A stretch of 64,000 bases of DNA from Hoplostethus atlanticus (lineage: Eukaryota > Chordata > Actinopteri > Trachichthyiformes > Trachichthyidae). The first letter of the stretch is position 1. Every line of letters starts with the position of its first letter. The position numbers and the translations under genes are program-made. Location of the stretch: contig JAXDDX010000003.1 of assembly GCA_034670405.1 (NCBI GenBank), forward strand, positions 5,458,001 through 5,522,000. Reading direction: 5' to 3'. Of the stretch, positions 1-64,000 are shown one piece after another. The notes beneath the pieces are model-generated. The model ran no database searches, was not told where the DNA came from, and worked only from the letters and a program-made list of their open reading frames with translations.

Positions 1-64000
<64,000 letters not shown>

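Follow-up and report, generated by a model that had tools for sequence, protein, structure and literature searches.

Insert B, a short splice insert of the teneurins, has already been described in TEN2, TEN3, and TEN4, and its known peptides are RNKDFRH and RNKEFKH, with NKEFKHS given for TEN2. In mouse Ten3 the insert reads RNKDFRH and falls within the NHL propeller, between blades 1 and 2 (PMC11058771), and in chick Ten2 the insert B loop was exposed and made an NHL–NHL contact in the crystal (PMC5851990). The structure of the A1B1 form of human TEN4 has also been solved (PMC9058538). The companion insert A, which is AHYLDKIVK in mouse Ten3, is encoded at a different site of the gene and is 27 nt, or nine residues, long.

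The published tests of insert B, which concern other species and paralogues, disagree on how simple the resulting switch is. In membrane-bound TEN2 the insert stopped cell aggregation with LPHN3 and left the binding in other set-ups unaffected, an effect that was attributed to conformational restraint (PMC7195488). An effect of insert B on latrophilin was likewise reported when full-length Ten2 was displayed on cells but was not seen with soluble ectodomains, while Ten3-A1B1 still clustered with latrophilin-3 (PMC11058771). According to a 2026 study, homophilic adhesion needs an insert at A or B, either one of which suffices; Ten2 and Ten4 as A1B0, A0B1, and A1B1 forms all aggregated cells, and the mutual exclusion of homophilic and latrophilin binding was placed at the YD shell (PMC13269823). 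Hence, the statement of the first-pass annotation of the sequence studied here, that this insert switches latrophilin and homophilic recognition, is a fair summary of work on other teneurins, but a simplified one, because A or B suffices and the latrophilin effect depends on the set-up.

The second described system close to this locus is that of the SRRM3/SRRM4 neuronal microexons. In many zebrafish microexons a UGC and a UC repeat directly upstream form the canonical layout (PMC12626420), and RBFOX motifs, in the form of TGCATG, are enriched downstream of alternatively spliced microexons (PMC4317164). The zebrafish lines from which 45 conserved microexons were removed include one tenm4 microexon, which the three main-text mentions of tenm3 or tenm4 leave unstated as A or B, and a tenm3 B0 isoform was associated with reduced telencephalon activity (PMC12626420). 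There was no mention of tenm, teneurin, or UGC in PMC12626424, or of tenm or teneurin in the main text of PMC7821500.

A 21-nt microexon in the NHL propeller region

The window, i.e., the whole stretch of 64,000 nt of Hoplostethus atlanticus DNA that was analyzed, contains on its minus strand a 21-nt segment that is very likely the conserved, frame-preserving microexon of a teneurin-4 gene that encodes splice insert B of the NHL beta-propeller (microexon B; Table 1). This identity is supported by the borders and phase of the segment, by the 7/7 identity of its peptide, by the outcome of 3000 resamplings, none of which reached its score, and by the presence of the exon at 5/5 teneurin loci. The regulation and function that we propose for microexon B in this gene are given a lower, though still fairly high, likelihood.

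Table 1. Features of the teneurin gene in the window. Positions are those of the window; a slash marks an exon border. The limits of the features at 13673..14612, 1923..2498, and 47307..50335 are those of ORFs and not exon ends.
Feature	Position	Strand	Description	Basis
Microexon B	22516-22496	minus	21 nt, AAATAAAGACTTCAGACATAG; encodes RNKDFRH across the junctions, phase AG/A ... AG/C	
Upstream intronic flank	22517..22600	minus	Branch-point-like motifs of the CTAAC type, a long tract of pyrimidines, TGC at -23 and -20, CTGACAG 3′ splice site	
Downstream flank	22481..22495	minus	5′ splice site GTAAGG; GCATG at +11 to +15 of the intron, maybe by chance	
Upstream coding exon	23659..23908	minus	Start of NHL beta-propeller, ILHMGNG...NVTSVLEL	Pfam TEN_NHL positions 1-68; PDB match; splice sites read
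Downstream coding exon	19403..19635	minus	First residue (S), ends ...TLTNPR	Pfam TEN_NHL positions 66-148; PDB match; splice sites read
Two overlapping ORFs	13673..14612	minus	Rest of NHL and start of YD shell	Pfam TEN_NHL, TEN_YD-shell; best PDB chain TEN4
ORF with YD-shell coding sequence	1923..2498	minus		Pfam TEN_YD-shell; best PDB chain TEN4
ORFs with EGF-repeat coding sequence	50084-50335, 49087-49443, 47307-47642 (47307..50335)	minus		Cysteine-pattern scan
Microexon A	38877..38903	minus	27 nt, CTCACTATCTGGATAAGGTAGTGAAAG; AHYLDKVVK between EGF7 and EGF8	Sequence score and flanking borders

Reading of the sequence showed that microexon B is directly preceded by TCTGACAG and directly followed by GTAAGG. 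This agrees with the sequence and coordinates proposed in the first-pass annotation, which had placed the segment at 22496..22516 between CTGACAG and GTAAGG, and the junctions that it had proposed at 23659 and 19635 were both confirmed. The segment fits, in phase, between the exon at 23908-23659 and the exon at 19635-19403, of which the upstream one ends with ...CTG GAG CTC AG/GTAACC, while the downstream one is preceded by TTCTCTCAG and starts as CTCTCAG/C AAC AGT. When both spliced products were translated, the frame was kept with or without the insert. The insert adds seven residues directly after ...LEL in the NHL propeller, a position determined from the sequence and the PDB match. The earlier reading of an added eight-residue RNKDFRHS counted one residue too many, because the Ser codon (AG/C) forms in both the included and the skipped products, and the final Ser is thus also present in the protein without the insert.

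The RNKDFRH peptide is identical at 7/7 residues to the NHL insert of TEN4 (PDB 7bam/7ban) and of TEN3 (8r50), which upholds the proposed assignment of the segment as teneurin splice insert B. Among the PDB chains, a 49-aa query without the insert was aligned to 49 residues in six TEN2/TEN3 sequences, and to 56 residues, that is, seven extra, in nine TEN2/TEN3/TEN4 sequences, as expected for the B0 and B1 forms, respectively. The exon in the window thus shares with the known insert B its position after LEL, its length, and its frame-preserving effect, and its peptide is the same as in mouse Ten3 and in TEN4 7bam. It differs only in the species, the copy in the window being known here from genomic sequence. 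Microexon B is an expected conserved feature that was already known in teneurins, and the novelty initially ascribed to it is unsupported. Genome annotation easily overlooks microexons of such a small size, and their correct placement aids the modeling of teneurin isoforms.

The assignment of the gene in the window

Five of the ten minus-strand ORFs scanned matched Pfam teneurin domains (TEN_NHL, TEN_YD-shell). The best PDB chain was TEN4 for each of the four NHL/YD query segments, with 336.5 bits versus 305.8 bits for the next paralogue in the first of them, and 267.6 versus 234.8, 290.0 versus 245.8, and 188.0 versus 150.1 bits in the others; the PDB chains matched include none named TEN1. 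Over the joined exons the window gene was 83% identical to TEN4, 77% to TEN3, and 74% to TEN2. A tree of eight rows, with no TEN1 reference among them, joined the window gene with TEN4 at a support of 76/68, which is under the star threshold and not decisive. The query covering EGF6-8 matched TEN3 best among seven PDB matches, which included no TEN4 row, so this comparison is uninformative on TEN4. Judged by the four best matches to TEN4 chains, the gene is most likely tenm4, as the first-pass annotation had it.

A primer of a zebrafish tenm4 probe (PMC6423166) matched the window exon at 18/22 bases. As a gene identifier this primer was rejected, because by eye it fits a locus on another contig (C116) better, and it is either uninformative or slightly against tenm4. 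The label of the same probe, “exons 21-25,” suggests that the zebrafish number of the upstream exon is about 21 and not 16, as in the first-pass annotation, which had called the two flanking exons 16 and 18.

Comparison of microexon B with chance matches

Within the intron of 4023 nt there are 18 segments of the form AG-N21-GT, each of which was given an identity score against RNKDFRHS. Microexon B reached the maximum score of 45, while the next best segment scored 5. When the intron was resampled 3000 times using a first-order Markov model, the top score was 25, and 0/3000 resamplings reached 45. On both strands of the window there were 494 such segments, with the runner-up to microexon B scoring 15. 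Genome-wide, the pattern CTGACAG-N21-GTAAGG was found at 14 places, as compared to 12 when the pattern was reversed as a control. Taken by themselves, the splice borders are ordinary, and it is the encoded peptide together with the place in the gene that sets microexon B apart. The match to RNKDFRH could still be a coincidence, in which a piece of intron happens to resemble the insert peptide, given that it is only 21 nt long and that its border pattern is about as common as the control; yet the resampling, the distance to the runner-up within the intron, and the equivalent exon at the 5/5 teneurin loci described below make such a coincidence so exceedingly improbable that it was rejected.

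The same exon at the other teneurin loci

The assembly (632.8 Mb, 1161 contigs) was searched using the downstream exon as the query, which gave six matches at five loci, with the exon split in two at one locus, and at the four loci outside the window about 10 kb each was then scanned. The data showed that 5/5 teneurin loci found contain a 21-nt exon bordered by AG and GT, in the same phase and between the same two conserved exons. It encodes RNKDFRH at four of them (the window, C32:1512928-1512908, C116:842148-842168, and C21:1148309-1148289), and KNRDTRH at the fifth (C21:743867-743847). The four RNKDFRH copies differed from each other at 2-5 of 21 nt with no amino-acid changes, which is the pattern expected of coding constraint, while the KNRDTRH copy differed from them by 7 or 8 bases. 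The scores at the five loci were 41, 41, 41, 41, and 30, the last of which assumed AG before the exon and becomes 27 by hand with the true AA. The next best segment on the sense strand scored 9-11 at four loci and 23 at the C21:1148309 locus, and the top antisense candidates reached 10-16 versus 30-41 in sense. At the weakest-scoring locus the highest score among 400 resamplings was 25.

These comparisons also bear on the view that the segment in the window is a fossil, i.e., a recognizable exon that is no longer spliced. Genomic sequence alone cannot show exon use. However, the peptide is identical to those of TEN4 and TEN3, the splice sites are intact, and there are no nonsynonymous differences among four of the five paralogues, which makes loss of splicing very improbable.

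Two of the loci look tenm3-like, each with 86% identity to TEN3, and the tree groups both with TEN3 at 96/95. The C21:1148309 locus appears weakly tenm2-like, with 79% identity to TEN2 versus 78% to TEN3. The C21:743867 locus is 64-65% identical to each of TEN2, TEN3, and TEN4, and we take it to be tenm1-like by exclusion only. The tenm1-like and tenm2-like loci share a contig, where roughly 0.4 Mb separates them (C21:738732-1148139), and at the latter locus (L017, C21:1148289) the intron after microexon B is 148 nt long, as compared to 2163-4883 nt at the four others. At the C116 tenm3-like locus (L018, about 2195-3163 and 9091-9716) there is an extra intron inside each of two NHL exons, which are unsplit at the four other loci. 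Both extra introns are at G/GTAAC sites, and they suggest intron gain or an unusual rearrangement.

The fact that the exon is present at every teneurin locus recovered supports an origin of microexon B before, or together with, the vertebrate teneurin duplications, as judged from the sequence comparison. The count of 5/5 loci in one genome is a stronger argument for its age than the presence in a single tenm4, on which the proposal of an ancient switch had been based. Of that proposal, the old age of the exon holds, with the same position and phase at 5/5 loci, while the locus count, although a useful addition, is by itself no proof of an equally old binding switch. In the solved chain of Drosophila Ten-m, 49 residues were aligned to positions 1-48 of the 49-aa query that lacks the insert (E 0.00021), which, as judged from the alignment limits, indicates that this chain is without the seven-residue insert. 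PMC12626420 describes individual microexons as not overlapping between vertebrates and Drosophila, and a bilaterian age of insert B is unsupported.

Splice-regulatory motifs and the proposed use of microexon B

Pyrimidines make up 80% of the last 60 nt upstream of microexon B, and with the two TGC motifs listed in Table 1 this flank resembles the canonical zebrafish layout. The GCATG downstream is the core of the RBFOX motif and not the full TGCATG, which occurs twice at the C32 locus. The flanking motifs named here are candidate motifs by sequence. GCATG was found downstream of the exon in 2/5 paralogues, which are tenm4 and one tenm3-like copy. A UGC is located 8-24 nt upstream in tenm4 and in the two tenm3-like genes, and the tenm2-like gene has one at -28, while in 1/5 paralogues, the tenm1-like C21:743867, TGC was not found in the 60 nt upstream. 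When five 3′ splice sites of the window gene were compared, a single TGC (-12) also turned up at the flanking exon that starts at 23908, and for microexon A no TGC was found within 40 nt upstream. Because the flanking exon carries TGC too, this motif was downgraded as a strong sign of SRRM4 control.

Microexon B shares with the SRRM3/SRRM4 neuronal microexons its very short length, which is a multiple of three, its conserved peptide, and its location in a synaptic adhesion gene. It also has a UGC and a pyrimidine tract directly upstream, which is a weak test in view of the TGC at exon 23908, and the tenm1-like locus without TGC is a point of difference from these microexons. One might suppose that the loop is ancestral in all the teneurins found and that its neural on/off regulation was retuned separately in each paralogue, which we consider a doubtful, speculative extension of these data.

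By analogy to these systems, microexon B would be a cassette exon whose inclusion, chiefly neuronal, depends on the vertebrate microexon splicing program, with SRRM3/4 acting through the UGC-plus-pyrimidine tract, perhaps together with RBFOX and PTBP1. Its inclusion would produce an exposed seven-residue loop between the first two propeller blades, as in other teneurins. Combined with insert A, this loop could support homophilic teneurin adhesion, as published for other teneurins, while on the membrane-bound protein it may hinder trans-cellular latrophilin binding by constraining the conformation, as for Ten2. We infer by this analogy that both the alternative splicing and the latrophilin/homophilic switch may operate in this animal. 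A constitutive microexon, always present in the tenm4 mRNA and forming a fixed loop with no switch, would be compatible with the GTAAGG 5′ site and the pyrimidine-rich 3′ site, which by eye seem sufficiently strong for an exon that is always included. The frame, however, is kept on skipping, both TEN2 and TEN3 have documented B0 forms, and the zebrafish microexon set that was drawn from exons differentially spliced in mouse brain development has a tenm4 microexon, with A or B unstated (PMC12626420). Constitutive use is therefore quite unlikely, and the cassette exon is the preferred reading.

Microexon A and a repeat element in the window

Microexon A, the companion of microexon B, was also found in the same gene, where it encodes AHYLDKVVK. 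It scored 46 against AHYLDKIVK, while the next best segment scored 16, and reading of the sequence placed it between the EGF7 exon, which ends at 41467, and the EGF8 exon, which starts at 36179. As microexons A and B are both in the window, the gene could make four isoforms, from A0B0 to A1B1. At window positions 22739-23206, in the intron that immediately precedes microexon B, there is a 468-bp element with 31-bp terminal inverted repeats that are 97% complementary. This element looks like a non-autonomous DNA transposon, a name that we infer from these features.
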